From assembly GCA_030432235.1 (NCBI GenBank), contig JAUIHT010000004.1, forward strand, positions 248,001-312,000: a DNA stretch of 64,000 bases, in the 5' to 3' direction. The stretch's first letter is position 1, and each line of letters starts with the position of its first letter. Position numbers and translations under genes: made by a program. This document shows, piece by piece, positions 3,006 through 20,007 of the stretch. Source of the DNA: Verrucomicrobiia bacterium. Its GTDB lineage: Bacteria > Verrucomicrobiota > Verrucomicrobiia > Opitutales > Cerasicoccaceae. The notes under the pieces were generated by a model that saw only the letters and a list, made by a program, of their open reading frames with translations, ran no database searches and was not told where the DNA came from.

Positions 3006-3060
3006 TATTTGGGGATAGCTAACTTGTGGAATGTGTTTTGATTTGACGCATATACAAGCG

Positions 3061-3074
3061 TGCAGCAAGCTGCC
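3061..3074. promoter_or_regulatory. Putative LacI-type operator, TGCNGCNNGCNGCA family, site A
   Basis: TGCAGCAAGCTGCC is a near-perfect inverted repeat (GCAGC-AA-GCTGC) ending 4 bp before the GTG chosen as start of the LacI-family gene. The same 9-mer GCAAGCTGC sits in a larger palindrome at 6977-6998, in front of the next secreted beta-helix gene. I infer autoregulation plus control of the neighbouring target. Binding is not shown. Confidence 0.4.
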
Positions 3075-3078
3075 TAAA

Positions 3079-4161: not shown

Positions 4162-4281
4162 AAACCGAAGGGCTCGAATGCACAACTTTCGAGGTTATTA
4201 GCGGCAACGCCTTGAAGCTACCAATCCCACAACACACGAGGCCGAAAGCATACTGCGTGCTGCGAGAGCATTCAGTATCTC

Positions 4282-6888
4282 TTAATTGCCGGCTCCGGTA
4301 ATCCATATCGGACGATTGGTGGATGTGGTATTGTTCCACTGCGTTACCTGAGGATAACTAATTTCCATGTAGCGTGAAAGGACGCAATTCCCAGGATTGT
4401 CATAGTTATTGTTGCTAATGCTAACGCTCGACCAAGTTGAGCCTTGGGATATGATAATAACGTCAACATAGTTTTCGTTAACCTCGGGAATATTATTAAT
4501 ATTCGTGAACTGGTTGTCATCGATGACGAAGGAGCCCGTGGCATTAGGGGCGTAGCTGAAGATGCCATAGTGACCCGTTTCCTCTATCGTGTTGGACGCG
4601 ATAGTGATGTTCTCAATATCATTTTGGCAATCGATACCGGAGTCGACCGTGCTCCATATGTAGTTATTCTGGACGGTAACATTATGGGCATTGTCCAGAA
4701 TGCGCATTCCATAGCTCTTGCTGTTGAGAATGACGTTCCCATCGACGAGAACATTATCTACCGAGTAACCCGGGCGACCCTGCACGGTAATGCCGCCATG
4801 AGAACTTTCGTTGGCCGTATCGGTGATATAGTTGTCCAGCACGGACACATTCGAGACAGGATAGATATCATAGGATACTTCCGAAACGACGTGAACGCCG
4901 GAGCCATCACTCTTTTCAATATAGTTGCCCTCGATGACCATGTCCTTACTGCCCACGCAGGAAATGCCTCGTCCGTGGGTTTGTCGACGCACATCGTTCC
5001 CAATCACCCAGATGTTGTTACACTGGGAGGGTTGATTCGCATATGATACTACGGCGATCATATCATCTCCTGTGTCACGCACGTGGTTGTTCCAAATGTC
5101 GATGTGGTGGGCGCCTCTTGTCAGGTGGATACCGTCCGAAAATGTATTCCAGACCCAATTATCATAGATGTCGCCGTAAGCTGAGGTGATGTCAGAGGCG
5201 ATAATCGCGTTGCAAGCAGCTCCCTCGAAGTAACATCCACTGACCTCGAAATTGGTCGCGCCGATCAAATGGAGAGAGGTCTGCGCCGGATTGAACTCGC
5301 GCTGAGTGGCGCCAAGCACGACAAAGCGGCATTTGCGCACATAGGTATTATCTCCGTTCAGTCTGACAGCGGCGTTCATCGGGTCGGATGCGGCCAAAAC
5401 GCTGATGTAGCCGTGGCCAAACAAGCTTGCCCCATTGAGCGGCAAAACGGAGGAGTGCCTGAAGACGCCAGGCGGAACATACAGTGGCTTGTTTTGGCTG
5501 ACAGCGGCGGCAATAGCGCTGGTGAGCGCCGCCTGATTATCCGTTACCCCATCCCCGACAGCACCATGGGAGGTAATGTTTATCGCGGCATTTATCTCCG
5601 CCGCAGTTGGCGGAGTATCGCAAAGAAGGGTAACATCGTCGAAATAGGAGGTCGTATTTCCGCGCAGGTAAACCCGGCTGAAGTTGCTAAAACTGGTATC
5701 CGTTGCCTGTGCTATTGGCATTCCATTCACCCTGAGGTATAAAGTACTACTGGCCGCATCCCGGCTTAGCTCTATTACTGCCATGGGCGCACTCAACGCG
5801 CCATGACCGCTATCTGTAGGCGTAGTCAACTGGGTTCCCGTGTCACCCCAGCCGGGCTCACCGCTTAGTGAAAATTTCCGAATGCTGACATAACCTTCAC
5901 CATTTGCCTGAGAGCTTGTAGATGAATCCCAGAGGACGCCATAGCCTGTAGTGCCCTCCGCATTGAGCACGCTTGCGCAAAGCGCTCGTTGCCATGTGCT
6001 ATGGCTGGCCTTGAAGCGCAGAGTCCAGTTGCCCGTCACCGTGGTTCCGATTTCTGCCCGTGCAACGCCATTGTTGAGCGCCAGGTAGGGCGCAGAGGTC
6101 AATGAACTATTAGCGCTGGACAGGGCCGGACTAGCGCCACCGACAGACGTCCAGCTCGCGAGCGTTTCCATGGAATCCTCAAACACAGTTTGGAGTCGAA
6201 CATCATCAAAGTAGGAGGTCGTGTTCCCCCGCAGATAAATGCGGCGGAAACTGCTAAAGCTGCTATCGGTTGCCTGAGCAACAAGAACGCCATCCACCCT
6301 CACTGAGAGCTTACTGCTGGCAGCTTCCCATTTCAGTTCGATTTCCGCCATGGGTGAGCTGAGCGCCCAGTGGCCGCTGTCCACGGCGCTGCTCAGGCTC
6401 GTGCCCGCATCGCCCCAGTTAACCTCGCTGCCGAGATCAAATTTCCTGATGCTGATATAGCCTGTGCCGCCGGCTTGGGAACTGAGAGCAGAATCCCAGA
6501 AAACGCCATAGCCTTCAGTGCCACTGGCATTAAACACACCGGCATAGAGGCCACGTTGCCAAGAGGCATGGCCAGCCCTAAAGCGCAGTGTCCAGTCGCC
6601 AGTAAGGGTGGAGGGCAACTGAGCATAGATAACACCATTATTCAGCGCCATATAAGGAATACCTGAAAGAGAGCTATTGGAAGAGCTCAAGGCGGGATTG
6701 GCACCATCTACCGTGGTCCATTCCGACAGGCTGCTCATGTCGCTTTCAAAGACGTGTCCGTGCAGGGCTGTACATGCAAAAAGCAGACAAGATATATATA
6801 GAGTTAGCCTGTAGAAGAAAATCCGTGTGATGTTTTTGCTCTCTTGGGCATATTCAATTTCGGACAGGGGTATATTTGGGGTATTCAT
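4282..6888 (-). CDS. Secreted right-handed beta-helix (pectate-lyase-like) protein with two tandem N-terminal beta-sandwich domains
   Basis: The 868-residue product has a hydrophobic export segment at about residues 24-44. Two near-identical domains of about 188 residues each follow (about 47-235 and 236-423). Each runs from F-E-(S/D)-x-M through a W-Q-R block to S-Y-F-D-D-V and resembles a concanavalin/LamG-like sandwich, possibly carbohydrate-binding. The remainder starts with I-T-S-H-G-A-V-G-D-G-V-T-D-N-Q-A-A, the opening of the pectate-lyase superfamily beta-helix, and then shows repeated beta-helix rungs with N-N-Y and D-N-x-I segments. Substrate and mechanism (lyase or hydrolase) cannot be read. 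The ATG is preceded immediately by CCCC. A palindromic site lies 90-110 bp upstream. It is separate from the following gene by about 230 bp. Confidence 0.82.
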   Translation of the reverse strand: MNTPNIPLSEIEYAQESKNITRIFFYRLTLYISCLLFACTALHGHVFESDMSSLSEWTTVDGANPALSSSNSSLSGIPYMALNNGVIYAQLPSTLTGDWTLRFRAGHASWQRGLYAGVFNASGTEGYGVFWDSALSSQAGGTGYISIRKFDLGSEVNWGDAGTSLSSAVDSGHWALSSPMAEIELKWEAASSKLSVRVDGVLVAQATDSSFSSFRRIYLRGNTTSYFDDVRLQTVFEDSMETLASWTSVGGASPALSSANSSLTSAPYLALNNGVARAEIGTTVTGNWTLRFKASHSTWQRALCASVLNAEGTTGYGVLWDSSTSSQANGEGYVSIRKFSLSGEPGWGDTGTQLTTPTDSGHGALSAPMAVIELSRDAASSTLYLRVNGMPIAQATDTSFSNFSRVYLRGNTTSYFDDVTLLCDTPPTAAEINAAINITSHGAVGDGVTDNQAALTSAIAAAVSQNKPLYVPPGVFRHSSVLPLNGASLFGHGYISVLAASDPMNAAVRLNGDNTYVRKCRFVVLGATQREFNPAQTSLHLIGATNFEVSGCYFEGAACNAIIASDITSAYGDIYDNWVWNTFSDGIHLTRGAHHIDIWNNHVRDTGDDMIAVVSYANQPSQCNNIWVIGNDVRRQTHGRGISCVGSKDMVIEGNYIEKSDGSGVHVVSEVSYDIYPVSNVSVLDNYITDTANESSHGGITVQGRPGYSVDNVLVDGNVILNSKSYGMRILDNAHNVTVQNNYIWSTVDSGIDCQNDIENITIASNTIEETGHYGIFSYAPNATGSFVIDDNQFTNINNIPEVNENYVDVIIISQGSTWSSVSISNNNYDNPGNCVLSRYMEISYPQVTQWNNTTSTNRPIWITGAGN
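5620..6750 (-). repeat. Tandem duplication of a domain-coding segment (two copies of about 565 bp)
   Basis: Within the 868-residue gene two successive segments (about 6750-6186 and 6185-5620) encode the same domain with most residues conserved in order, including the blocks T-x-x-G-(A/G)-A-x-P-A-L-S-S, L-R-F-(R/K)-A, G-Y-G-V-(F/L)-W-D-S and L-R-G-N-T-T-S-Y-F-D-D-V. The two DNA copies remain visibly alignable, so the duplication is internal and fairly recent, or held similar by selection or gene conversion. Confidence 0.8.
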
Positions 6889-6976
6889 GGGGCAGGGGTA
6901 TCATTGAGCTTTATAACGGGGTAGTGAAAGAACTACCAAGAACTTAGCTCGAAAGCTTCAAGGCATCCACCCATGA

Positions 6977-6998
6977 GTCATGCTGCAAGCTGCATGAC
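6977..6998. promoter_or_regulatory. Putative LacI-type operator, TGCNGCNNGCNGCA family, site B
   Basis: Seven-base arms GTCATGC and GCATGAC flank TGCAAGCT. The inner 14 bp TGCTGCAAGCTGCA match site A at 3061-3074 in the pattern TGCNGCNNGCNGCA. It lies 89-110 bp upstream of the 868-residue beta-helix gene on the minus strand. There is no T-run after the hairpin on either strand, so an operator fits better than a terminator. Confidence 0.42.
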
Positions 6999-7116
6999 AC
7001 CCGTAAATACACTCCAGAATAATATGTAAGAAAATCGCCGCCGAGCTGGTCGCACCCCAAGAATCCCTGCCCGAATGGGCGCGGAGAGCTTCGTTGCCAG
7101 CGAGCATGATAAAGAC

Positions 7117-10100
7117 CTACTCTCGTGCAACTATACGAAGGTTATCGCAGTGCATAGTTCCCGTATAGTAATTACCCATGCCGAAGTTAAACGTTTTCAA
7201 ATAACGATTCAGGGCGCAAGTCTTATAGCAAAAATCTATATTGGAAAGACTAGCCCTGCCATTAACATAAACAGTGGAAACTTGCCGTACGGTGTCGGCT
7301 AGAATTCCAATCTTATAATACGTATTCGGCTCAACTATTATGTCAGTAGAATGCCAGGCCCCACTGTCATCTTGCACCTGAATATATCCATTATGGAATG
7401 CAACACGGACCACTTCCTTTCCGATACTGTCACGTAAGTAGACGGCACGTTGATGATAATAGCTTGAAGCAATATCAGTTTTCAGGAATGCCTCAACATA
7501 GACTCGCCCATGTAGTGGCTCAAAAGTATAGGCACCCATGAGGTCACCTGCGGCATCGGCCTTCTCAAGCCTCAATGCTTGCCCATGCAAGCCTCCGGAT
7601 GATTCCACAGTAATGCCATTGGCATTAGTCCAACCAGTCGGCAATTGTGAACCAGCGGGCACCATTTCAAAATCGTGCTCGTATATATGCTTTCCGACAA
7701 GTCGACCGACCCTTACATTGTCTACCGACAAAGTATTGTTGTAGCTACCTTCCGCAGCAGAAATCACAAAGTAGCCTACGTCATTAACCGCATTCCTGAA
7801 TGGCTCATTCTGTAACAGTAGCTGCATAAATCCAGAGCCTTCTTGCATGCCTAAATCTAAGAAATATAAGTCGAAAGATTGGCCTTTCACGTCAAAATCG
7901 ACCCGCAACCGATACCATTCGTTGCTTTGTAAATTCGTCAAAAGCTCTTGGGTAACAGCACCATCGTAGACAACAAGGGAGCCACCACTCATAGCGACAC
8001 TCAAAGCCAATTGATTTCCCGCGGATGAGTATAAGTAGATTAGCTTTTTGTAGTTAAGCAAATTGCTCGAATTAAAATCCAAGATTATTGAGCCATAATC
8101 TTTAATTTTATCAAAGCTCAGCCATGCATACGCGTAGCCTCCGCCTGTTTGGCTCATTTCCATGCAGCGTTGAGGTACTGCGGATCCGGGATAAACCAGG
8201 CTCGACGCACCCGCCACTTGAACCACACCATTACTCGATGTAGAATATCCCCAGTCAAGAGGCGTATCTTCGGGATCCAAATCGAAAATCTGATCCGCCA
8301 AAGGTTCAAAATAATAATCAGTCAATCCCGCCCGCTCTACTACATGAGAGTCACTAGTATTGGCATTTGAATAAATATTATTCTGAGCCCCAAGCTGGAA
8401 ATGCTCATATACATTTAAGCCTCCTGAGTCGTGGTTAATATTCGTATAGTAGTTATTATTGACCACGGCATACTCAGTATTATTATCCAAGTAAATCGGA
8501 ACCATCGGGAATGGATAAGCCGGAGGAGTGTCATATGCGGAAAATGGATTCCGGGTCATATTGGCTATGGTATTCTCGAAAATATAAGAACTCCGCCCCG
8601 GAGGACTCATCATAGTTTTCTGACGTGCTAACGTATATATGGCAGCACCATCATCATGGGTCGTCATCACACCACTGATGTAGTTGTATTGTATCCGGTT
8701 ATTTCCCTGAGGCACATCCTGGTGGCCGCTTATAAAATTCCCCATCTGTATGCCCATATAGCGACTCGATAATATTTCATTATATTCTATATAGCTGTCC
8801 GAAACGAAATTTGACCAAATGCCAACCGCATTTGTGTAAAGCCTACCAACGCCTTTAATATAGTTATTTGCAATGGTAAGCCCATATGATTCTTCACCAG
8901 GAATCACCGTGCCCTGCAGTGAAGCAGTAATATCCGTATCAAGGCATATGCCAGAAGCAGCAATATCAGTGATATTGTTGTACGTAATTTTAGTGTTCCT
9001 AACACAGGTTGAAAAATCTATTGCGGATCCGCCCAGCTGGGTGAACTCATTATTTGTAATTGCGATTCTCCGTGAGTATTTTGCCTGAAAGGCAGCGCTA
9101 ACTTTTTCTCCAACAGAAGGCGCACCACGGATTTGCATGGCCTGTGTTGCGACCAATCCTGCCCCGCTAGGGTCACGACCATCTATTCGCCACGCAGTAT
9201 GCCGAAACACCAATCCACTGAATACCAAATCCTCAACCATGCTATTATCAGATGTGCCCGCCAACTGAATCAGCGTCTTAACTTTGGGCACAACAAATGA
9301 GTACTCTGAAATTTGACTCCCACTCATCTCTCCGGCTCGTATTCGATAGTAGAGCGTGCGATCTCCACTAACAGGCATATCTAAAAACCACTCATCGCTT
9401 GTATCAATGAAACCGAGAGCATTCTCAAAATAATACGGACAGTCATAGAAAAACAATGTACTTTTTGCATAGGAGGTAAAGTAGCTACCTTCCGGATTCC
9501 GAAATGTCAGATAGGTAAGGTCATTTTCCGTTGAAGTAGATGAAATGCGCAACCTGTCATGGTAGTAATGCTGCAATAGAACCAACTCTGCATCTTCGAT
9601 ACTTCCTGAGCCTACCCGATTACTTATATCCTGAAAATCAGTATACTTGATTGCCAGGCTATCGCTTGCGTCGGATATATGGGCATCGGCGCTTGTGAAT
9701 TCCTCATGACCAGGGCCGATATAGGCGCCTCTAGTTACGAAACAGTTCCCTAAGGTTTCTTCATCCACTTTATTCGGATGCCTGGCCCGAATTGCGCGAG
9801 ATAATTTTTCATCACTTATTCCCACGTATAGCTCTACAAAGTTTGGCACGCCGGGGTCCGTTATGGCTGCTGAGTAGCGGTTAAAGAAACCCGTATCAGC
9901 TACCCAATTAAGGCCCGCAAGCTTTACTCCTCCGGATAGAATTGGCTGCTCGCCAGAATAGGCCGTATAATAAATCTTGTAACCATTAGTGCCAGAATCG
10001 CTTGGGGTAAAAATAATCGGCTCATCAATATAATACACACCACCTCTGAGATATACCTTTATATCATCAGTCATATTATCATTCACCAGAGAAACCAACT

Positions 10101-10290
10101 GCCGTGCTTTTTCAATCGTACGCACTGCCGTGCCAACAGTAGTTCCAGCATTTGCATCATGACCGTATGTTGGATCGACATAATAGGAAATCACACCTGA
10201 TGCCTTTGGGATATCGCTGAAGAGCAATATGCTTATTATAAACAATAGATTTATGATTTTTTGAATAGTTGGGGCTGGGGTAGGTTTCAT
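7117..10290 (-). CDS. Large secreted right-handed beta-helix protein (GH141-like opening) with C-terminal LamG-like domains
   Basis: This 1057-residue protein begins with a signal peptide (hydrophobic run about 13-31). It then has Y-Y-V-D-P-x-x-G-x-D-A-N-A-G-T and V-Y-L-R-G-G-V-Y-Y-I, followed by S-G-E-Q-P-I-L-S-G-G. This opening is typical of parallel beta-helix glycosidases such as GH141 and related unclassified families. Beta-helix rungs continue to about residue 640. Two beta-sandwich segments follow (about 660-860 and 865-1057), each with W-Y-(R/K)-type and D-N-(V/L)-R endings like LamG-type modules. It is probably extracellular and polysaccharide-active. The function at the level of bond or sugar is inference. 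It is separated from the SDR gene by about 120 bp with no recognisable terminator. Confidence 0.8.
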   Translation of the reverse strand: MKPTPAPTIQKIINLLFIISILLFSDIPKASGVISYYVDPTYGHDANAGTTVGTAVRTIEKARQLVSLVNDNMTDDIKVYLRGGVYYIDEPIIFTPSDSGTNGYKIYYTAYSGEQPILSGGVKLAGLNWVADTGFFNRYSAAITDPGVPNFVELYVGISDEKLSRAIRARHPNKVDEETLGNCFVTRGAYIGPGHEEFTSADAHISDASDSLAIKYTDFQDISNRVGSGSIEDAELVLLQHYYHDRLRISSTSTENDLTYLTFRNPEGSYFTSYAKSTLFFYDCPYYFENALGFIDTSDEWFLDMPVSGDRTLYYRIRAGEMSGSQISEYSFVVPKVKTLIQLAGTSDNSMVEDLVFSGLVFRHTAWRIDGRDPSGAGLVATQAMQIRGAPSVGEKVSAAFQAKYSRRIAITNNEFTQLGGSAIDFSTCVRNTKITYNNITDIAASGICLDTDITASLQGTVIPGEESYGLTIANNYIKGVGRLYTNAVGIWSNFVSDSYIEYNEILSSRYMGIQMGNFISGHQDVPQGNNRIQYNYISGVMTTHDDGAAIYTLARQKTMMSPPGRSSYIFENTIANMTRNPFSAYDTPPAYPFPMVPIYLDNNTEYAVVNNNYYTNINHDSGGLNVYEHFQLGAQNNIYSNANTSDSHVVERAGLTDYYFEPLADQIFDLDPEDTPLDWGYSTSSNGVVQVAGASSLVYPGSAVPQRCMEMSQTGGGYAYAWLSFDKIKDYGSIILDFNSSNLLNYKKLIYLYSSAGNQLALSVAMSGGSLVVYDGAVTQELLTNLQSNEWYRLRVDFDVKGQSFDLYFLDLGMQEGSGFMQLLLQNEPFRNAVNDVGYFVISAAEGSYNNTLSVDNVRVGRLVGKHIYEHDFEMVPAGSQLPTGWTNANGITVESSGGLHGQALRLEKADAAGDLMGAYTFEPLHGRVYVEAFLKTDIASSYYHQRAVYLRDSIGKEVVRVAFHNGYIQVQDDSGAWHSTDIIVEPNTYYKIGILADTVRQVSTVYVNGRASLSNIDFCYKTCALNRYLKTFNFGMGNYYTGTMHCDNLRIVARE

Positions 10291-10409
10291 GTTATAGCCA
10301 TACTAGGGGTTCATGTCTAATATTCTCATACTGATTAAGAAATGAATTTTATTATTTTATACTAGCAAACATCTACCAGCTAGGCCCATACCCGCGCTAT
10401 GCTACGCGT

Positions 10410-11240
10410 TTAGCCTCTAGCTATAAAATCGATCTCGCGCTCGATAGCCTCGGATTCAAAAATGGCAGGTTGTCCAATCTCAGCTTCTGATGAAAAGTCT
10501 CCCATGCTATAGTCCTTACCCCACCAGGACTCCAGAATGGCTGCCAATGGGCCTTCGCACCAGGATTGGCGACTAACTGCATTCAAGATGCGTACTCCAG
10601 GCCGGCGAGGCGCCTCGACCGCACGCGTGAAGGCCTCCAACGCCTGGGAACGAGATAGCTGCGTAAGTTGCGCAAGTGCCCACTCAGATATTTTGCCGGG
10701 GCGAATCTTGGGGGGAGGAGTTTCATCAGGATAGACTGCTGCCAAGCGAAGATTAACCACATCGATCTCCGGATTCTGCCGGTGCAAATAACGTGTCACT
10801 TCTTCCATGAGGTACTTGGAAAGACCGTAGCCATCACGATCCAGGCAGGGGTGTCCATCCGGGATGGGTAATTGCAAAGGCCGAAATGCCACCGACTGCA
10901 ATCCGACAACTGCTATCGAACTGGCATTGACGAACTTCCGGCACCCCCGGTCGATGAGGTAGCGCATCAGCGCGTGAGTTCCCTCGACGTTGACCCGCAA
11001 TCCGTCTGCCTCTGAGCAGCCGCCTGTCACGGCAGCCAAATGCACGACCGCGTCGACCTTGTGTGAGTCGAGGACGCTTAAATCATTCGAATCGGCAAAG
11101 CTGCCTTGGTAGTGTGTCTGATTCTCACCGTCAGGCAGCCCGTTGCGTGTTAGCGTGACGACGTGATGACGCTGCGACAGCTCATTGAGCAAAGCACTGC
11201 CAAGAAATCCGTTGGCACCAGTCATTAAAATCGTGAACAT
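10410..11240 (-). CDS. NAD(P)-dependent extended SDR / epimerase-dehydratase family protein
   Basis: The 276-residue product opens with the Rossmann motif T-G-A-N-G-F-L-G (residues 7-14). It has D-A-V-V-H-L-A-A near 63-70 and the catalytic pair Y138-x-x-x-K142 (Y-G-L-S-K). It is shorter than typical epimerases, so the C-terminal substrate domain is small. It is the last gene of the minus-strand operon that begins at 18536, 37 bp after the MDR dehydrogenase. A role in redox conversion of a sugar released by the GH4 or beta-helix enzymes is likely (context), but the substrate is unknown. Confidence 0.83.
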   Translation of the reverse strand: MFTILMTGANGFLGSALLNELSQRHHVVTLTRNGLPDGENQTHYQGSFADSNDLSVLDSHKVDAVVHLAAVTGGCSEADGLRVNVEGTHALMRYLIDRGCRKFVNASSIAVVGLQSVAFRPLQLPIPDGHPCLDRDGYGLSKYLMEEVTRYLHRQNPEIDVVNLRLAAVYPDETPPPKIRPGKISEWALAQLTQLSRSQALEAFTRAVEAPRRPGVRILNAVSRQSWCEGPLAAILESWWGKDYSMGDFSSEAEIGQPAIFESEAIEREIDFIARG

Positions 11241-11277
11241 AGCTAATTGCTTTTAACTGTGAGAATACGTCAGAGCC

Positions 11278-12282
11278 TTAAGGCCAGCGAACGACAACGC
11301 CCATGTAGGATTTATCCCCTTGAAGTATCTTTTCGTAGGCCGCAGGTGCGTCAGTAGCATCGACACGATGCGTGATCGTTTTCTCCCAAGGCAACAACCC
11401 CATGGACATGTGCTTGAGCACGGTCATACGGCAGGGCATATAGCCATCATCGCAAGGGAAGAACATTTTCAGGCGACGTTCGTGAGAAGGTAGAAACGAA
11501 AAGTTAAATGGCTCTTTCCCATAGTTACCCTGCCAGATGAATTTGCCTTCGAGGCGACATAGCTCGATGGCGGGCTGAATCATTGCGGGGATGCCGGTCG
11601 ACTCATAAACCACATCGGCACCGTTGGGGCAAAGGCGCTTTACCGCTTCACCCATCGGCTGCTCGTTCACATTGATAAGCTCATCTGCTCCAAACGCACG
11701 CGCCAACTCCAGCTGATGTGGCTCCAAATCAACCGCAATCACACGACACCCCCGCATGACGCAGGCAGCGATGACACCTAGACCAATCAGGCCACACCCC
11801 ACCACAACAACAGACTCACCCATCTGAGGTGCCGATGTGTCAACCGAGATATAGCCCACTGCCGGCATTACGAACATACTACTCGTCTCTGGGTCGCAAT
11901 CCTCCGGAAGCAGCCCAAGTCCAGGCGTCCCACCCACCTCCGATATGACATGTGAACAATGCGTTCCCGAGACGGCGCTGACAACGGTACCATCCTCAAG
12001 AACCGGGCTGACTACAGAGCTACGAACAAATACACGATCGCCCACCTTGATGCCTTTGATATCGGAACCGGTTTGTTCAACGACACCCGTGGACATATAG
12101 CCCGTGCACAAGGGATAAGGGCCCCAGCTGATCTTATTGCGTATCAGGGCAAACTCAGTGCCGATGCTGACTCCCGAGAAGCTTGTTTTTACCAGTACCT
12201 GGTTTCCCTTCGGCTCGGGTAAGCGAACAGGCCGCAAAGAGAATTGGCGATTCTCATCGGTGATCAAAGCGGTTGCTTCCAT
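11278..12282 (-). CDS. Medium-chain (MDR) zinc-type dehydrogenase
   Basis: The 334-residue protein shows the GroES-like N-terminal half (V-L-V-K-T-S-F-S-G-V-S-x-G-T-E, then G-Y-M-S-T-G-V-V and G-D-R-V-F-V) and a nucleotide-binding half with V-V-G-C-G-L-I-G-L-G near residues 160-170. The cysteine-rich structural zinc lobe of classical alcohol dehydrogenases is not visible. This fits the subfamily of sugar or polyol MDR oxidoreductases found next to glycosidases. It lies between the GH4 and SDR genes in the same operon. The likely job is oxidation or reduction of a monosaccharide from the pathway (inference). Confidence 0.83.
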   Translation of the reverse strand: MEATALITDENRQFSLRPVRLPEPKGNQVLVKTSFSGVSIGTEFALIRNKISWGPYPLCTGYMSTGVVEQTGSDIKGIKVGDRVFVRSSVVSPVLEDGTVVSAVSGTHCSHVISEVGGTPGLGLLPEDCDPETSSMFVMPAVGYISVDTSAPQMGESVVVVGCGLIGLGVIAACVMRGCRVIAVDLEPHQLELARAFGADELINVNEQPMGEAVKRLCPNGADVVYESTGIPAMIQPAIELCRLEGKFIWQGNYGKEPFNFSFLPSHERRLKMFFPCDDGYMPCRMTVLKHMSMGLLPWEKTITHRVDATDAPAAYEKILQGDKSYMGVVVRWP

Positions 12283-12327
12283 AATGTCTTATTTCAATGG
12301 TGAAAATTTCGGCAGCTTCGCGGTCGT

Positions 12328-13755
12328 TTAGCCGTGAAATTGAGGCAGCAGCTCACGGCCGGCTGCCAGTAGCTCATCGAGCATACTGGCGATATTCCTG
12401 TAGTCGTTTGAGTTATTCAAGGGATCGGCAAGCATGGCCTGCAGGGCCAGTTCACGGCATCCAGTGAGGGCTGCTTCGACGGTGAGGTTTTGATTAACAC
12501 AGTGCTTATGCGTGAGTGATAAAATGGCATCAGGAATGGGTCCAGAAACATGTGGCGCCAAAAGATTCCTCTGAAACGTACCCAGAGTCTCCACTACTGC
12601 CCCCATGGGTAAATTCGCAATTTGCCCGCGGTTCGGTACCGCAACGGGTTGCACCGTGGAAGGGCCGCCTGTTAAAGCTGCGATAATAGGGGCCAAAGAT
12701 TCTTCGGACGGCTTAGTCGGGACGGATTCGGGATCGTCATTCGTCCATGTCTCTATGCGGTCATTGAAGTAATCCATCCACAAGGTCTTGCGGTCCTCAA
12801 TGGAGGTCAAATCCACGCCAAAATCTGCGCCGTAGTGTGTTTTCTCCGAGAGAAAAAAGGGAAAGAATTCAACCAGGTGACGATCACCCGGATACGGCAT
12901 CACACCGTAATCCTTAAACAGCTGGAACTTGACTGACTCGGGGCTTCTTTTTGCGCTTAAGTTTACCAGTTTGCTCTCGGACTTACTCAGATTGCGTACC
13001 CCACCCTTGACATCAAAGCGCTTCAGCAGGGCCAGACCATCGTCACCCATGATGTCCAACTGCGTGATCCAGGCGAAGTGATTTATCCCGGCAATGGTTG
13101 CAGAACAGTTCTCCTGAAAGTTTTCGAACCCGAGCCATTCCTCCAACTTACCCATGAAGCCCATGTACTCATGGCAGAGCCCTACCACGCGAATAGAGGT
13201 TGTTCGGCTGATGGCCTGAACAATCTGACTCATCGGGTTGCTTAGATTAAGCAGCCAGGCCTTTGGGCAATGCCTTTCCATGGCCTTGGCGATATCCACG
13301 ACCACGGGTACATTCCTCAAGGTACGCGATATCCCTCCCGGACCCGTTGAATCCCCTACCGGTTGATAAATTCCATATTTTTTGGGAATCTCGATATCAT
13401 GCTCCATCGCATCTAGCCCACCGGTGGAAATGCATAATACCACAATGTCGGCATCAGCCAAGGCGAGCTCCAGCGAGGCCTCAGTATCAAGTCCGATCTG
13501 GGCATTCACCTTGCGGCTAATCGTCTCACAGACCTCCGCCATGGTGCTATTGCGCTCCCGGTCAATGTCATGCAGCACAAAAGTGGCATTTTGCAGATGC
13601 TCATTGACCGCGATATCCCTGAAGAGCACAGGCACCCATTGATAACTACCACCACCGATAAAAGTAATCTTGGGATGCGTTCTGTGCGATGGAATGCACT
13701 TGTCCTTTGGCCCAGCGAACTCGGCCTCTCCTATCGATTCCAATTGTCCAATCAT
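12328..13755 (-). CDS. GH4-family glycosidase (NAD- and metal-dependent)
   Basis: The 475-residue protein has the GH4 layout: Rossmann start K-I-T-F-I-G-G-G-S-Y-Q-W (about 29-40), L-H-D-I-D-x-E-R, the N-P-M-S segment, G-L-C-H-E-Y-M-G with the metal-ligand Cys/His, and G-I-N-H-F-A-W-I. The family cleaves glycosides by a redox-assisted elimination that uses NAD and a divalent metal. Members act on alpha-galactosides, alpha-glucosides, their 6-phosphates or alpha-galacturonides. There is no signal peptide, so it is cytoplasmic. The two dehydrogenases downstream in the operon fit an oxidised-sugar pathway. The substrate is not readable from sequence. Confidence 0.9.
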   Translation of the reverse strand: MIGQLESIGEAEFAGPKDKCIPSHRTHPKITFIGGGSYQWVPVLFRDIAVNEHLQNATFVLHDIDRERNSTMAEVCETISRKVNAQIGLDTEASLELALADADIVVLCISTGGLDAMEHDIEIPKKYGIYQPVGDSTGPGGISRTLRNVPVVVDIAKAMERHCPKAWLLNLSNPMSQIVQAISRTTSIRVVGLCHEYMGFMGKLEEWLGFENFQENCSATIAGINHFAWITQLDIMGDDGLALLKRFDVKGGVRNLSKSESKLVNLSAKRSPESVKFQLFKDYGVMPYPGDRHLVEFFPFFLSEKTHYGADFGVDLTSIEDRKTLWMDYFNDRIETWTNDDPESVPTKPSEESLAPIIAALTGGPSTVQPVAVPNRGQIANLPMGAVVETLGTFQRNLLAPHVSGPIPDAILSLTHKHCVNQNLTVEAALTGCRELALQAMLADPLNNSNDYRNIASMLDELLAAGRELLPQFHG

Positions 13756-13770
13756 AATTGCATTCGCATG

Positions 13771-14409
13771 TTAGCGATTCTGGTAGTTTAAGACGTATTC
13801 CTTAAGCGTCGCCTCGTCGGCCTTGTTTATGCTTTCGACATGTCCATCGACAAAAAGTACATTCAGCGCCTCATCATGTCGCCAGTCAGCATACGCATCA
13901 AAGCTGCCGGCACCAAAAGCATAATAGCCATCGCCACCACTCATGTGAGCCGTGTCCATAATCAGTACGGTCGAGGCGGGGTTGAGAAAGGTGTCTGGGT
14001 TGATCGCGATATTTCCACCAGTGCCTGCCGCATTCATACCGTAAGTACGACGCGCATTGCCATTGGGATAGGTGTCCAACGCCGCAGGACATAACAGGAT
14101 GTTATTCTCATTCATGTCTGGAAAGCGCTGCTCCATAAACTCATAAAGCGCCATCATCCAACTTAAGCCGGTCCCTACTCCCGGAACCGTATTATAGTTT
14201 CCGGACGTGGGCAGTTTACTGTCATTCTCCTGAGAGTATAACCGAAGTCCCATACCGATATTGCGTAAGTTAGACGTGCACTCAGCGCTCTCCGCCATGC
14301 TACGAACACTCGAAATCGAAGCGATGAGCAACGAACCCAGAATGGCTAATACTGCAATGACGGAAAGTAACTCCACCAGCGTAAAACCACGACTTCGATT
14401 CTCTCTCAT
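13771..14409 (-). CDS. Pseudopilin-like secreted protein (N-terminal methylation motif)
   Basis: The 212-residue protein starts with a short basic leader and the prepilin signature G-F-T-L-V-E-L-L followed by a hydrophobic helix (about residues 9-33). The body has the features common in Verrucomicrobiota and Planctomycetota pseudopilin-like proteins: C-x-x-N-L-R-x-I-G at about 51-59, and near the C-terminus H-x-x-x-x-N-V-L-F-V-D-G-H-V. It is embedded between glycan-degrading genes, 15 bp ahead of GH4 and 22 bp behind a beta-helix gene, which suggests a surface or secretion-related role tied to this locus rather than general pili. A second one occurs at 35230-35940. Confidence 0.85.
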   Translation of the reverse strand: MRENRSRGFTLVELLSVIAVLAILGSLLIASISSVRSMAESAECTSNLRNIGMGLRLYSQENDSKLPTSGNYNTVPGVGTGLSWMMALYEFMEQRFPDMNENNILLCPAALDTYPNGNARRTYGMNAAGTGGNIAINPDTFLNPASTVLIMDTAHMSGGDGYYAFGAGSFDAYADWRHDEALNVLFVDGHVESINKADEATLKEYVLNYQNR

Positions 14410-14431: not shown

Positions 14432-16036
14432 TTATAGAGCGGTGATTAATGCAGGGAGGCTTCCGCTCATTTTTGTCTTTGAATCGACCACCAAGGGAAT
14501 ACTGCTCGGGGCCTTGCCCGCGGATTCCTTGTAAGTAACCCAGGGCCGCGAACTCCATTTGGGCTGTTCGGCAGTCACGTTGGTCCACGTAACATCCGCA
14601 TCCGTCAAAATAATCTGGGCTAGACCGTTACCGCGGACGGATACCTGATCCAATACGGCCGAACACTCCAAGAGGAACAGCCCCCAACCGAGATTATCGT
14701 AGATTTCGAGATTGGACGCCGTCATTGCACTGTGGCCGATGTTAACGAGACCGTTATCATTACCATAGAAAGAGCCTCCCGAAATTTCGCAATGGATGTC
14801 GTCATGTGCGGAAAAGCCTTCATCCAAAGAATGAAAACCTTCAATATCCTCAAAGACTAAGCTGTCTCCTGCGCCATGCAAATTGAAGGCATCATTCTGC
14901 GCACCCGACGCACGCAGGTTACGATAAATATGATGGGAAACATTCCACACTTTAACGACATAGGTACGCGTGGAAACCTCCCAACCCTCTGGACTCACCC
15001 CCGGAAGCAAAGTAATGCTTTGCTTGTCTTCGGATAGCATCGCGTACTGGGTAAACTGCTCTGTCTGCGCATCTTGACGCAACCGCTTCCCCTGGTAAGT
15101 CAGGACGTAGGGATACTCGACAGGAATTTTGCAAACATAGGTATCGCCCTCCTTACGAAATCCCGTCAATGGCTCGAAGCCCGTCACCAGCTCGCCATTA
15201 CCCTCAACAATGATAGGTGCTCCTGCCTTACCCGAAGTGGTAATCTCCAAGGCTTCGCGATAAGGGCCGCTCCCTTTGGCAATGCGAATAATATCACCGG
15301 ACCGACAAGCCGCCGCGGCCTCCTTCAGGCTGGCATAGGCGGCACCACCACGCTGATTCACCTCCAGGATACGCGGGCCAATCGCCGCGGAGTCACCGGA
15401 TGCTTTTGAAGAGGACGAGAGGATAAAATAAAGCGGCACGCCATAGTTCATTTTATCCGGATTGCTGGAATCCGACATGATTCCACGTCCACCGGAGTAG
15501 GCACCCGGATCAGAGTTAACCTCAAACACTAGAGAACGCCCTGCTGTACCCGGCTCCGTGTACTGGAGAATGAAGACGTAGTCGCCAGGGGCAAATTCAA
15601 CCGCTGGAAAACTAAGCACAAGCCATTTGCCGCTTGCCGGTTTCAGCCCATCGGTCATTGTGCCATCGAACTCAGCAATGACATCACCGGGCTGAGCTTT
15701 GCCGCTCTCTGATTTTGCAAAGACTAGCTTAAAGGGCGCATAAGCATCAAAGCCATCTGTACCGGAATTGATTTTTAGAGCCAGTTGCGTAGCGCTAAAA
15801 GCCTTCTCCACTGTAAATTGCTGACCAAGGTCACGTCTCCCTTGCCCTTCGATCCAGAATACGCGCATCCCCGCGGCTTTACCTGTGGGCACAAATGATA
15901 CGTCCTGCGCTAAACGCACCTCACCATCAACGAGTTCGCATTTAAAAGAACCCTTTTCCACGCCAGCTCCGCATAATAGACAGGGAGCCAGTATGGCTAA
16001 GCTAAGCGCGTAAAATATTGGATTCTTATTCATCAT
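14432..16036 (-). CDS. Secreted right-handed beta-helix protein, 534 residues
   Basis: There is a signal peptide (hydrophobic run about 9-23, A-P-C-L-L-C-G-A-G; a lipoprotein-like Cys is present). The N-terminal half (to about 210) looks like a beta-sandwich. After I-L-E-V-N-Q-R-G-G-A-A-Y-A-S-L-K-E-A-A, beta-helix rungs follow (G-D-I-I-R-I-A-K-G, A-P-I-I-V-E-G, and later N-L-x-I-Y-D-N and V-S-V-R-G-N repeats). The likely role is binding or cleavage of an extracellular polysaccharide. The family was not identified. The start is the last of M-M-N at 16036; CCCC lies 5 bases upstream of the first ATG. It has operon neighbours on both sides with gaps of 22-26 bp. Confidence 0.75.
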   Translation of the reverse strand: MMNKNPIFYALSLAILAPCLLCGAGVEKGSFKCELVDGEVRLAQDVSFVPTGKAAGMRVFWIEGQGRRDLGQQFTVEKAFSATQLALKINSGTDGFDAYAPFKLVFAKSESGKAQPGDVIAEFDGTMTDGLKPASGKWLVLSFPAVEFAPGDYVFILQYTEPGTAGRSLVFEVNSDPGAYSGGRGIMSDSSNPDKMNYGVPLYFILSSSSKASGDSAAIGPRILEVNQRGGAAYASLKEAAAACRSGDIIRIAKGSGPYREALEITTSGKAGAPIIVEGNGELVTGFEPLTGFRKEGDTYVCKIPVEYPYVLTYQGKRLRQDAQTEQFTQYAMLSEDKQSITLLPGVSPEGWEVSTRTYVVKVWNVSHHIYRNLRASGAQNDAFNLHGAGDSLVFEDIEGFHSLDEGFSAHDDIHCEISGGSFYGNDNGLVNIGHSAMTASNLEIYDNLGWGLFLLECSAVLDQVSVRGNGLAQIILTDADVTWTNVTAEQPKWSSRPWVTYKESAGKAPSSIPLVVDSKTKMSGSLPALITAL

Positions 16037-16062: not shown

Positions 16063-17835
16063 TTAACGTAGGCTGTTCACTTTGATGGTATTGTTTTCAA
16101 TCAATACGTCAGCCTGATTGATCATAATCGGCTGACCACCACTGAGACCAAAGGTTTTTCCCATGGAACTCATATCCACCTGATTGACCGACTCGATGTG
16201 ATTATTGCGAATGACCACATCGCGCGCAGCGGAAACATTGATGCCATCGCGCGCGCTACCGCATATGGTATTATCCTCGATAATCAAATGACTGTTCCCT
16301 GGAAAATAAACGGGATCACCGTCGGTGGGGCTAATACGTGCAAATACGCAAATCACCCCAAACGTATATAAGTCATTCGGAAATGCCGGCATACCGTTTC
16401 CTACATCGGTAAAGTGATTACCTTTGACGGTGACGTCCTTAACCCAGCCGGCTTCTCGCCAGAAATCAAACTCTGGCCCCATGCTGATTCCCACGTCCTT
16501 GATCCGCTCAAAGCGGTTGTTCTCAATCAGCCCGTGGCCCGCCAAAATACGCAGCCCGCGAGCGCGGTGATCGTGAAAATAGGAATCGCGAACGACAAAG
16601 TCTGGCGTGGCCGTGGCGGGATATTCGCTAACGCTGCCTACGGGCACATTTTCAACCGGTTCCTCCAGACGAACCTGAAAGAAGGTGGCTTTTTTAGAAT
16701 GTTTGAAAGTGGGCCAGAATTGCAGTGCAAGTGGCCTCCACGCTTCGTAAGGCCTATCGACAATCTTGAATTCCTGCACCTTTCCTGTGGCCAAGGTGGC
16801 GTAATTCGTATCCGTAAGAAAACGAACGTCATCGCCAGGGTGAATGACGAGGTCGAAGAGCTCATCAGCCTGTGGTCGCATGGATAGAAAAGTATTTTCA
16901 TCAATCCATTCCAAAACAGGCAGCACCACCCCGTGAAGATTCATCGAGTCATCGCCCATGAATGCGAACTCACAGTTTTTCAGGAGTGGCCCTTTTCTCG
17001 TGTAAGCGGCGTTAAAGCCATCCGCGCACGTTGACAGGAGACGCTCTGCGGTCGCGCCTTCAGGTGGTGGCCCGGGTAGGATTTTCAACCTATCGAATTC
17101 GCCGGCTTCTTCGGCAAAACGGACAATAACCCCCAGGCCAGGAGACGCATTTATCGTCAGATCCTTAAACCGTAAGCCCTTACAGGCTTCCATGATTTTT
17201 AACGCGGATTCCGAGCGGTGGTTGAAAGCTACCCGGTCGCCAACTTCAACCATATCGAATCCCACTTCCCCTTCGCGGAAAGTAATCAGGCCACGCCTGT
17301 CATTAATCTTTTCGAAACGCTTCAAGTAGTAGTCTGGCGCCCCTGGCTTTAAGCAGTGCTCATCTGGCTCAAACAAATGCATACGGTTGACCAGGTACAG
17401 TTCACTCAATGCCGGATAACCGACGTCTATCTCCACCTCGGCAGTACCTGATGCTTCATCGACCTTGACTATTCTGCCCTGCGTGAAGGGCAAGGGGTCA
17501 TAGTCAATGGTCAAGCCCTGCACGGCTATGTCGGAACAGTGTTTGAAGGTAAGCGCTGGACCACTTGGATTCGTAGCCAGGAAGGTAACACCGTCGGCGA
17601 CGATTTTAAAGCCGCTCTTATTTTTAAGCACCAAGCCCTGAGGCGGCAATGGGTATACGCCTGGAGCAATGGTCACCTCGGAAACCCCCTCCCTCAGAGC
17701 GGGCAAAGCGGCTACAGGATCGGTAAGCGTCGCGGCCTCGGCGCTACCTAATTCGAATTGGGTCACCAGCGCCGCCATCAGAATGTAATTTAGTACTTTC
17801 ACTGAACATTGATCTCCGTTGCTACTACTTCGCAA
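16063..17835 (-). CDS. Secreted right-handed beta-helix glycosidase-like protein (GH110/GH28-like)
   Basis: In 590 residues a signal peptide (about 13-34, ending A-E-A) is followed by V-T-I-A-P-G-V-Y. Next comes C-S-D-I-A-V-Q-G-L-T-I-D-Y-D-P-L-P-F-T-Q-G, an opening shared by GH110 alpha-1,3-galactosidases and other parallel beta-helix enzymes. Later rungs include N-C-E-F-A-F-M-G-D-D-S-M-N-L-H-G and repeated I-E-(N/D)-N segments. The G-D-D-S-x-N-x-H-G block with paired Asp residues is a plausible catalytic region. It is second in the LacI-controlled operon. A perfect palindromic LacI-type site lies inside its signal-peptide coding region. Hydrolase rather than lyase activity is inference. Confidence 0.76.
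   Translation of the reverse strand: MRSSSNGDQCSVKVLNYILMAALVTQFELGSAEAATLTDPVAALPALREGVSEVTIAPGVYPLPPQGLVLKNKSGFKIVADGVTFLATNPSGPALTFKHCSDIAVQGLTIDYDPLPFTQGRIVKVDEASGTAEVEIDVGYPALSELYLVNRMHLFEPDEHCLKPGAPDYYLKRFEKINDRRGLITFREGEVGFDMVEVGDRVAFNHRSESALKIMEACKGLRFKDLTINASPGLGVIVRFAEEAGEFDRLKILPGPPPEGATAERLLSTCADGFNAAYTRKGPLLKNCEFAFMGDDSMNLHGVVLPVLEWIDENTFLSMRPQADELFDLVIHPGDDVRFLTDTNYATLATGKVQEFKIVDRPYEAWRPLALQFWPTFKHSKKATFFQVRLEEPVENVPVGSVSEYPATATPDFVVRDSYFHDHRARGLRILAGHGLIENNRFERIKDVGISMGPEFDFWREAGWVKDVTVKGNHFTDVGNGMPAFPNDLYTFGVICVFARISPTDGDPVYFPGNSHLIIEDNTICGSARDGINVSAARDVVIRNNHIESVNQVDMSSMGKTFGLSGGQPIMINQADVLIENNTIKVNSLR
17747..17762. promoter_or_regulatory. Putative intragenic LacI operator, CAATTCGAATTG family (third site)
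   Basis: CCTAATTCGAATTGGG is the exact reverse complement of the 16-mer at 18578-18593. It lies about 75-90 bp inside the coding region of the 590-residue protein. A site inside the second gene of the operon could act as an auxiliary operator for looping or as a roadblock, as in other LacI systems. Codon choice alone (Q-F-E-L-G) could also produce it, but a 16-base match by chance is unlikely. Confidence 0.45.
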
Positions 17836-17852
17836 CCAGAGGGTTGTAAGAT

Positions 17853-18536
17853 TTATTTACGGCGACGGAAATACAAAGCCAGCCCAAGAACACCAAGACC
17901 GATTCCCATGGCCATCGTGGCCGGCTCGGGCACAGCCTGGACAGTAAATGCCATATCGTAGCCTGGTGCGGAGAATGAACCCCCATCGTATTGCCACAGG
18001 CGGCCGTCAGTATAGTTATTTAACGTATCAACGTTAAACACCTGATCCTGGTCTGTCACACTCGCAATATTCCAAGAGAGCATGATGGTGTAGTAATTAC
18101 CCGATGTCAGACTGACGTTCTCTTCTAAGTCGAATAACAACCAATTGCCGTCGATTGGATTACTTGCCTGAGTCAGGTAATTGCCTGTCTGACTAGAAAT
18201 CGAAGAACCAACCGAGGTAATCACACTGCTCTCATAAACCGTCGCGGTGAAGGCCGCATCGTCGGCGCCCACCTGGACATTGCCGTTTGCCAAAAAGCTA
18301 AAAGAATCCAGGACGAAGTCCGAAGTCGCCAGAAAGGACTGACCCAAGTCGCGGCGCGAGGCCTCGTTATCACGCCACTGATAGCCGGCGTTACCTGTGG
18401 TTTGGCTGGCCATGACGTTCTCCGTAGGAGGCGTAGTGCCTAATTCGGTGACGGTAACACCGTGGGCAAAGGGTAAAAACAGGCTAACAACAGTAGATAA
18501 GGAAATCGTTTTAATGGTATTCATGGAGTATTTCAT
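17853..18536 (-). CDS. PEP-CTERM secreted protein
   Basis: The 227-residue protein has an N-terminal signal peptide (about 8-26) and a classic C-terminal sorting tail: V-P-E-P-A, a hydrophobic helix and a terminal F-R-R-R-K cluster. This tail is the substrate signal for an exosortase, which would cut and anchor the protein at the outer surface; no exosortase gene is in the window. The middle, with W-R-D-N-E-A-S-R-R-D-L-G-Q-S-F and beta-rich text, resembles carbohydrate-binding-like sandwiches seen in other Verrucomicrobiota PEP-CTERM proteins. It is the first gene of the operon that continues to 10410. An operator-like palindrome lies about 50 bp upstream. Confidence 0.87.
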   Translation of the reverse strand: MKYSMNTIKTISLSTVVSLFLPFAHGVTVTELGTTPPTENVMASQTTGNAGYQWRDNEASRRDLGQSFLATSDFVLDSFSFLANGNVQVGADDAAFTATVYESSVITSVGSSISSQTGNYLTQASNPIDGNWLLFDLEENVSLTSGNYYTIMLSWNIASVTDQDQVFNVDTLNNYTDGRLWQYDGGSFSAPGYDMAFTVQAVPEPATMAMGIGLGVLGLALYFRRRK

Positions 18537-18577
18537 TGCTGAGGGTTTAAGCGATGGGGATTAATCGAGCCGGGTTT

Positions 18578-18593
18578 CCCAATTCGAATTAGG
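18578..18593. promoter_or_regulatory. Putative LacI operator, CAATTCGAATTG family (operon promoter)
   Basis: CCCAATTCGAATTAGG lies between the LacI gene stop (18627) and the PEP-CTERM start (18536). It has a 10-bp perfect palindromic core with central CG, the usual geometry of LacI/GalR operators. It shares its core with sites at 19728-19739 and 17747-17762. Confidence 0.6.
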
Positions 18594-18626
18594 TGAAGGT
18601 TTGCTGATTAATAAAATTCATGCAAG

Positions 18627-19676
18627 CTAATTTTTTTGATTAATGACTTGGCCCGTGGATTCTCTTACCAGCAACTCCGGCTTTATCATTTCAGGCAGTC
18701 CCGACGATGGCTGACCTGAAATCAAATCCATCAGCAGCTCACACGACCGTTTCATCAGGATATGCGGGCTTTGATCAATCGTTGTGATGGTAGGATAAAG
18801 CTCACGCGAAATCTCCTCGTTATTAAATCCAGTTACCGAAAAGTCCTCTGGAATACGGAACCCTTTTCGCAACAAGGCCTGAATCGCACCAACGGCAATC
18901 AGATCGTCCAGGCATACAAGGGCGCGAGGGCGTTCTGACTCGGGAAGCCCAAGAAACTGGTCAACAAGCATACGTCCTCCACGCAGGTAGTTATCCATCT
19001 CCTTGAATTCCGGTGTAGCCCATAGGGCCTTGGCAGGATCCAGCCCCAATTCCTTGACCATCGATTCCACGGGGGCCCAGCGCCACCGATTACCCTTGCC
19101 TATCCCGATCATGGCGAACCGCCGATGCCCCAGTCGGAAGAGGTGCTGAATGATATCACGCATCGCCTGGCTGCGGTCCAACGTGACATGAACAATTTTT
19201 CCGGTATTCTCCTCGGCCGATTCAAGTAATACGCAAGGTGTGGTCCCGAGGTGCTCTTCCAGCTTTTTTTCCTTTAGAACGGAATTGATGTTAATAATGC
19301 CGTCCACGCCGAAACGCTGGAAATCCTTGATAACACTTACTTCGCGGTCAGCCTCGCCCATCGTCGTCTCAAACAAGTAATGAAAACCGTACGTGCGCAA
19401 CACACGCTGCAATTCGGCCAGCTTAACGTTAATAATGGGAATGCTGAAATTACGAAAGCAGACACCAATGAGTTTGGAGGTCTGCCCCCTCAATTTTCGC
19501 GCATGAAGATTCGGCTCAAAACCACATTCTTCCATCGCCTCGAAGACCCGCTTTCGTGTCTCTTCACTGACATCCTTATGCCCGTTGATGGCCCTGGAAA
19601 CAGTCCATTGGGAAACATTCAGGTACCTAGCGAGGTCTGCGGTGGATTGTATAGACTGGGAAGACTCTGATGCCAT
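18627..19676 (-). CDS. LacI/GalR-family regulator of the beta-helix/GH4 operon
   Basis: The 349-residue protein has the LacI HTH near residues 11-35 (S-T-A-D-L-A-R-Y-L-N-V-S-Q-W-T-V-S-R-A-I-N-G) and the hinge R-V-F-E-A-M-E-E-C-G-F-E-P-N-L-H-A-R. Its sensor domain keeps I-G-V-C-F-R, D-G-I-I-N-I and the D-D-L-I-A-V-G-A-I-Q-A-L segment of the family. It lies just upstream of, and on the same strand as, the seven-gene operon 18536-10410. Palindromes with a shared core sit in front of its own start and in front of the operon, which fits autoregulation and repression relieved by a pathway sugar. Confidence 0.92.
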   Translation of the reverse strand: MASESSQSIQSTADLARYLNVSQWTVSRAINGHKDVSEETRKRVFEAMEECGFEPNLHARKLRGQTSKLIGVCFRNFSIPIINVKLAELQRVLRTYGFHYLFETTMGEADREVSVIKDFQRFGVDGIININSVLKEKKLEEHLGTTPCVLLESAEENTGKIVHVTLDRSQAMRDIIQHLFRLGHRRFAMIGIGKGNRWRWAPVESMVKELGLDPAKALWATPEFKEMDNYLRGGRMLVDQFLGLPESERPRALVCLDDLIAVGAIQALLRKGFRIPEDFSVTGFNNEEISRELYPTITTIDQSPHILMKRSCELLMDLISGQPSSGLPEMIKPELLVRESTGQVINQKN

Positions 19677-20007
19677 TTGAATTCCAGCTCTATAGCCGCA
19701 TCATCCACCAATGTCACGCCTTATACCCAATTCGAATTGTGTTCGAGCTGCAATTCCCCGAATAGAGTGCAATCATTTGGTGATGACACACCTCAGACAA
19801 CGTGAAGCATGGAATTCCGTTATTCATGAAAAAACCCAGGCTCAAGGCGGACCGCTTTTACCTGCTCTTTCGGTCTTCAGCCCGATGGTGATGTCGTGCA
19901 ACGGCACAAGGTCTTCGATTATTTCCGTAAGAAGCCGTCCGACTCTACCCGCCAGAGCCTCCTAGCAATGGTACGGTTTCAGGGTCACACTACCATTGCG
20001 AGCCCTG
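19677..20007. other. Intergenic region between regulator and beta-helix gene
   Basis: About 330 bp. It holds the palindrome at 19728-19739 and otherwise no gene I can support. One plus-strand frame from about 19825 to 20030 is free of stops (it includes V-F-D-Y-F-R-K-K-P) but has no start and no recognisable family, so it may be a decayed gene end. Confidence 0.5.
19728..19739. promoter_or_regulatory. Putative LacI operator, perfect palindrome CAATTCGAATTG (autoregulatory)
   Basis: This is a perfect 12-bp palindrome, 52 bp upstream of the start of the LacI gene on the minus strand, in position to control its own promoter. It shares the 10-bp core AATTCGAATT with two more sites inside the downstream operon region. 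Confidence 0.6.

Follow-up and report, generated by a model that had tools for sequence, protein, structure and literature searches.

Operators that lie inside genes have rarely been shown to matter by sequence alone. The locus described here, from the 5.72 Mb genome of a Verrucomicrobiia bacterium (G000), raises the question of whether a palindrome written into the codons of an operon gene serves the neighbouring LacI-family repressor and, if so, what a repressor bound there would do. Its presence in three genera provides a natural test.

Gene content of the lacI locus

The locus lies in a stretch of 64,000 nucleotides (the window), where lacI and the operon genes are all on the minus strand. 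lacI (18627–19676) encodes a protein of 349 amino acids with the recognition helix SQWTVSR. Pfam assigns it a LacI-type helix–turn–helix (PF00356, E 1.3e-14) and a periplasmic-binding-like effector domain (PF13377, E 2e-30), and solved relatives found by PDB comparison include CcpA, LacI and PurR. The alignment to intact LacI covers that protein up to residue 328 of 360, beyond which the query has only eight residues more; therefore, the tetramerisation helix at the tail appears to be missing, and the repressor appears to be a dimer.

Gene 1 (17853–18536) encodes a PEP-CTERM protein of 227 amino acids (PF07589), whose counterparts in the relatives (loci L036 and L038) were assigned by place and by eye. 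Gene 2 (16063–17802), identified by Pfam (PF13229) and alignment, encodes a beta-helix protein that is likely a secreted carbohydrate enzyme. Gene 3 (14432–16036), taken from the open reading frame (ORF) list, has no Pfam match. By Pfam, the operon continues with a pseudopilin-like (N-methyl/DUF1559) protein (13771–14409) and ends with a GH4 family glycosidase (12328–13755; PF02056 and PF11975). The pseudopilin-like gene, which carries DUF1559 and an H-X9-DG motif, sits within a sugar operon and has similar ORFs in the orthologous operons. Genes 2 and 3 form, by eye, a single fused frame in both copies found in Cerasicoccus arenae (G003), L038:14272–17616 and L103:6858–10118. Among the ORFs scanned, polysaccharide-use genes are abundant at 759–13755 and 37175–63556 of the window, and comprise a melibiase-like glycoside hydrolase, a rhamnosidase, a GH130-like protein, four sulfatases, an MFS sugar transporter and a second LacI (3031–4161).

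From GTG 17802, the gene 2 frame begins with what was judged by eye to be a signal peptide, as it does in Verrucomicrobiota bacterium JB024 (G008; GTG, VKTIVTLFTLATATQYVLGS) and in C. arenae (ATG, MSVYRCFVQVACAALLTQYVLGS). Because the relatives and the signal peptide agree there, GTG 17802 was taken as the start of gene 2 in preference to TTG 17835.

Three palindromic sites and their rarity

Three sites, given here without strand, lie at this locus. O3 (19728–19739), a putative autoregulatory operator, has its centre some 57 bp before the start codon of lacI (ATG); rechecking its letters bore out the perfect 12-bp palindrome (CAATTCGAATTG) that a preliminary description had placed before the LacI gene. 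The same description had claimed a 16-mer before the operon with an exact reverse complement in the second gene, and both were found: O1 (18578–18593, CCCAATTCGAATTAGG), the putative main operator of the operon, lies between lacI and gene 1, and O2 (17747–17762, CCTAATTCGAATTGGG), a putative intragenic operator, occupies signal-peptide codons of gene 2 that encode T-Q-F-E-L-G. The spacing had been put at about 830–1150 bp, and the centres are indeed 831 bp (O1–O2) and 1148 bp (O3–O1) apart. The placement of O2 within gene 2 also held, but its distance of 75–90 bp inside the gene did not, as this requires the TTG 17835 start (+74 to +89) and the GTG 17802 start gives +41 to +56. Together, the sites give an approximate consensus of ACCYAATWCGWATTRGGT.

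Exact AATTCGAATT occurs five times in the 5.72 Mb genome, and three of these copies are O1, O2 and O3; three of five random genome points fell within 2 kb of each other in only 3 of 200,000 simulations. In the window, CAATTCGAATT has four matches at the three places (O3 matching on both strands) against 0.12 expected, a number reached in none of 100 shuffles. When the 10-mer is allowed one mismatch, the window has 3 matches and the shuffles a mean of 2.7, which is chance level; the signal therefore resides in exact, longer matches. This mismatch count speaks for three chance palindromes, but the exact matches, their genome-wide rarity and their conservation at the same places in relatives (see below) make such a coincidence extremely improbable.

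The remaining two genomic copies of AATTCGAATT, on contigs C7 and C37, fall within mechanical ORFs (524 and 293 amino acids, respectively). The C7 copy (L040:8922, G000:C7:38923) has CCAATTCGAATTGT in common with O3 and differs from the 16-letter consensus at more than one base; it might be an additional, weak site. For the C37 copy, the match is extended by just one base of the core's right side.

Counterparts in other genera

LacI orthologues were found in JB024 (69% identity) and in C. arenae KCTC 12870, a member of the Puniceicoccales (47% identity). O1 and O2 are kept in place in all three genera: the sites read CCTAATACGTATTAGG (O1, L036:13257) and CCCAATACGTACTAGG (O2, L036:14105) in JB024, and CCCAATACGTATTAGG (O1, L038:13496) and CCCAATACGTGTTAGG (O2, L038:14322) in C. 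arenae. Thus, an even palindrome with a central CG precedes the target operon in each genus, and an operator-like site lies within the gene 2 coding frame in each, with the frame and signal peptide retained. O3 has a counterpart in C. arenae (TCCAATACGAATTGGG, L038:12323), centred about 22 bp before the lacI ATG, and a scan of the JB024 locus found none, so that two of the three genomes carry an operator-like site before their own lacI.

With one mismatch allowed, genome-wide matches number four in G000 (three at the locus), two in JB024 (both at the locus) and six in C. arenae (three at the locus, one before a paralogue of gene 2 and two elsewhere); the reversed pattern, used as a control, matched 0, 1 and 2 places, respectively. 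Among 372 genomes of the order, an even draw from a larger group, the strict 16-mer CCYAATWCGWATTRGG occurs in three genomes at five places, four of which are at these loci: O1 and O2 of G000, O1 of JB024, O1 of C. arenae and the position upstream of the C. arenae gene 2 paralogue. Reversed CCYAATWCGWATTRGG matched once in each of two of the 372 genomes.

Only three species were found to carry this system. A search of genome contigs with gene 2 alone found nothing; a second search, with an alignment of gene 2, confirmed 195 relatives, of which the best 80 comprise the two known genomes followed by more distant ones, and a palindrome scan took in 22 of these 80 (L129–L150). One of these regions, L132, has a palindrome-like stretch in gene 2 that lacks the CG centre and is unlike O2. 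In Spartobacteria LR76, which has the same gene order and a LacI with a different recognition helix (SYC), no CG-centred O2-like palindrome is visible at the start of gene 2, and none was found at the gene 2 start of SCN18, where gene order was judged from similar stretches.

Recognition helix and palindrome centre

Recognition helices were compared across 33 of the 44 lacI loci, with 11 more distant ones (L025–L035) set aside, and the comparison of sites set aside five loci that repeat the window or JB024. QW helices occur in four of the 33 homologues, three of which have TWCGWA-centred palindromes beside lacI; the fourth is a broken gene in G076. RW helices occur in 27, and CACGTG-centred palindromes accompany 16 of these, one of which also has a TACGTA palindrome with unrelated flanks. 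The other two homologues have DW (no site) and RT (CACGTG) helices. This pattern is a correlation, because the homologues are related.

RW-type lacI genes of the order (L016, L084, L088, L089 and others) are preceded, and often also followed, by CCCAACACGTGTTGGG-like palindromes. In a scan for CACGTG-centred palindromes in the surroundings of homologous lacI genes (20 regions, each up to 20 kb), the best matches adjoined lacI, and the ORFs overlapping them were mechanical. The broken QW-type lacI belongs to another family of the order (G076:C126, L104:9810–11310) and shares 70% identity with the window's protein over 183 amino acids. It matches to residue 183 only, has no site upstream and has lost its downstream side; beyond the break, the sequence looks like that of a transposase. 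Horizontal transfer and later disruption could account for this gene.

Concerted difference of the operator centres

Within each of G000 and JB024, the centres of O1 and O2 match: both are TTCGAA in G000 and TACGTA in JB024, so that the two genomes differ, in both sites, at the base pair flanking the central CG on either side. The C. arenae centres are TACGTA (O1), TACGTG (O2) and TACGAA (O3). The encoded residues track the O2 centre, with F-E accompanying TTCGAA in G000 and Y-V accompanying TACGTA in JB024. Should C. arenae be the outgroup, which the identities suggest without a tree, four substitutions in two operators would have occurred in the G000 line, and two of these would have changed Y to F and V to E in the signal peptide. 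It is somewhat more probable than the contrary that the specificity of the repressor here dictates protein sequence: O2 would have followed the TACGTA/TTCGAA switch, forcing the Y/F and V/E differences, and a tolerant signal peptide would provide a refuge for regulatory DNA inside operons.

Constraint on O2 at the DNA level

In the gene 2 codon alignment of G000 and JB024, the seven codons of O2 are identical at 18 of 21 bases and at all seven third positions. Identity at seven of seven third positions is found in one of 560 windows of this size, O2 alone, and the gene-wide mean is 0.40. Total base identity in O2 is not special between these genomes, since 56 of 560 windows reach 18 of 21. The 22 flanking signal-peptide codons retain 23% amino-acid and 44% base identity. 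The preliminary description had called for site conservation to be set against synonymous drift in relatives, and had named as telling against it an intragenic site that drifts while its flanking codons are kept; the opposite was observed. Against C. arenae, third positions are identical at five of seven for both G000 and JB024, values equalled by 21 and 29 of 545 windows, respectively.

Codon choice in JB024 is also unusual at O2. Third-position GC content in this genome is 0.82 (eight genes), and O2 includes four minor codons that account for small fractions of their amino acids: CAA (Gln, 0.117), GTA (Val, 0.025), CTA (Leu, 0.016) and GGT (Gly, 0.115). When 3840 seven-codon windows are ordered by codon rarity, the first two overlap O2; the in-frame heptamer starting three codons earlier, at ACC, comes only 24th. 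Taken together, these comparisons indicate that O2 is held at the DNA level.

A conserved signal-peptide motif, TQxxLGS, of which the palindrome is a by-product, would be favoured by the C. arenae paralogue of gene 2, which retains Q-F-V-x-G-S and shares six of seven third positions with O2 of C. arenae (as do 9 of 560 windows). However, this explanation does not sit well with the complete third-position identity between G000 and JB024, the rare codons in a GC-rich genome or the exact match between amino-acid and operator-centre differences. Moreover, the paralogue's stretch that is codon-homologous to O2 (GGC CAG TTC GTG CAA GGT AGT) has lost a good palindrome though its peptide stays similar. 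A peptide motif is thus a very improbable source of O2, and selection on the DNA remains the preferred reading; the degenerate stretch may be a weak remnant.

The paralogue lies on another contig and has a putative operator upstream (L103:10212). This second gene 2 family gene of C. arenae (L103:10200–10230, G003:C9:125210), with the same operator upstream, would represent a distant regulon member and lies next to a divergent large gene (L103:10500–13544).

Proposed action of the repressor

O1 and O2 are taken to be operators because of their kept positions, the concerted difference of their centres, third-position conservation and their near-exclusive occurrence at the regulator's loci. This evidence strongly supports the preliminary assignment for O1 and O2; for O3, a counterpart exists in one of two relatives. 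Overall, O1, O2 and O3, the intragenic O2 included, are very probably operators of the adjacent LacI-family regulator.

From the sequence, we infer binding by this LacI, repression, a dimeric state and a roadblock step, which may be combined as follows. A LacI-family dimer on O3 would autoregulate lacI, and repressor bound at O1 would repress the polysaccharide-use operon at its promoter. O2 would add another operator, embedded in those codons of gene 2 that encode the signal peptide. In the absence of inducer, repressor at O2 would most likely act as a local block to RNA polymerase at the 5′ end of the gene, stopping either transcripts that leak past O1 or initiation or escape at a promoter between genes 1 and 2. 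As a result, the enzyme genes would be shut off more tightly than gene 1.

The preliminary description had offered DNA looping or a roadblock, and the two have fared differently. In a looping mechanism, LacI would bridge O1 and O2 and repress via a DNA loop of about 830 bp, as lac O1–O2 do. The similar O1–O2 spacing in the three genera (826–848 bp) and the near-consensus sequences of both sites are compatible with this arrangement. Against it, spacings of 831, 848 and 826 bp correspond to 79.14, 80.76 and 78.67 turns at 10.5 bp and share no common phase, albeit a weak test at such length; the spacing is set by the length of gene 1; and the protein, by its sequence, is without the tetramerisation tail. 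Looping is therefore considered unlikely.

Alternatively, O2 may be the ordinary operator of a separate gene 2 promoter, located in the 50-bp gap or at the end of gene 1, with no block to elongating polymerase. The intercistronic region between genes 1 and 2 folds into a stable hairpin in JB024 (z −2.87, followed by a T run) and C. arenae (z −4.01), and a weak one in G000 (z −0.83), which suggests a separation of gene 2 from gene 1 in the two relatives; neither stable hairpin was among the results of a simple terminator scan. In the C. arenae paralogue of gene 2, the putative operator lies directly upstream of the gene, and the window contains two coding-strand promoter-like matches 207–308 bp upstream of gene 2, inside gene 1, a number expected by chance. 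On the other hand, promoter matches were no more frequent than in shuffles. The 200 bp upstream of gene 2 contain none on the gene's strand, JB024 has none, and in C. arenae, where the gap between genes 1 and 2 is just 35 bp, the coding strand is free of them from O1 to O2. A separate promoter is accordingly the less favoured, though credible, option.

A local block at O2 is preferred over looping because the protein looks dimeric, the O1–O2 phase is not kept and a hairpin, stable in JB024 and C. arenae but not in G000, separates gene 2 from gene 1. For a strict roadblock, the roadblock half of the preliminary proposal, the chances appear about even.

Comparison with known systems

The lac repressor is a tetramer that loops DNA, and its O2 in E. 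coli lacZ, like the site described here, is a LacI-family auxiliary operator within a structural gene; in contrast, the window LacI, judged by its sequence, is without the tetramerisation tail. In the gal system, OI lies inside galE, GalR is dimeric and the operators, about 113 bp apart, form a loop with HU. The likeness is that a dimeric LacI-family repressor has an operator within a gene, close to where the gene starts, whereas the distance here is 831 bp. He and Zalkin reportedly described, in 1992, a PurR operator inside E. coli purB that acts as a transcription roadblock. As in purB, a LacI-family operator lies in a coding region and likely blocks elongation; unlike purB, the putative operator here occupies signal-peptide codons of the second gene, is paired with a pre-operon operator and varies in step with the latter from genus to genus.

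In the titles and abstract openings of the open-access papers searched, no paper on Verrucomicrobia LacI operators or on operators in signal-peptide codons was found. According to extracts of Ravcheev 2014 (PMC4052901), which name lacZ and purB, coding regions contain less than 1% of LacI-family sites, and 72% of the LacI-TFs studied there are autoregulated. The CG-centred even palindrome, the putative autoregulation and the local sugar operon resemble the local LacI-family regulons described in parts of that work and of Camas 2010 (PMC2978694). In the latter extracts, residues 15–16 are linked to positions 4–5 from the centre (NT-5/NT-4), whereas here the R/Q difference is associated with position 3. 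The locus thereby supplies a contrast of QW and RW recognition helices in LacI regulators of the Verrucomicrobiota.

By these comparisons, the putative operator O2 is a well-conserved case of a rare but known arrangement, that of lacZ O2 and purB. Intragenic operators are already known; what the sequences point to as unusual is the evolutionary record, namely conservation across genera, placement in a signal peptide and residues that track the operator. It offers a clean case for asking how transcription factor specificity constrains protein sequence.
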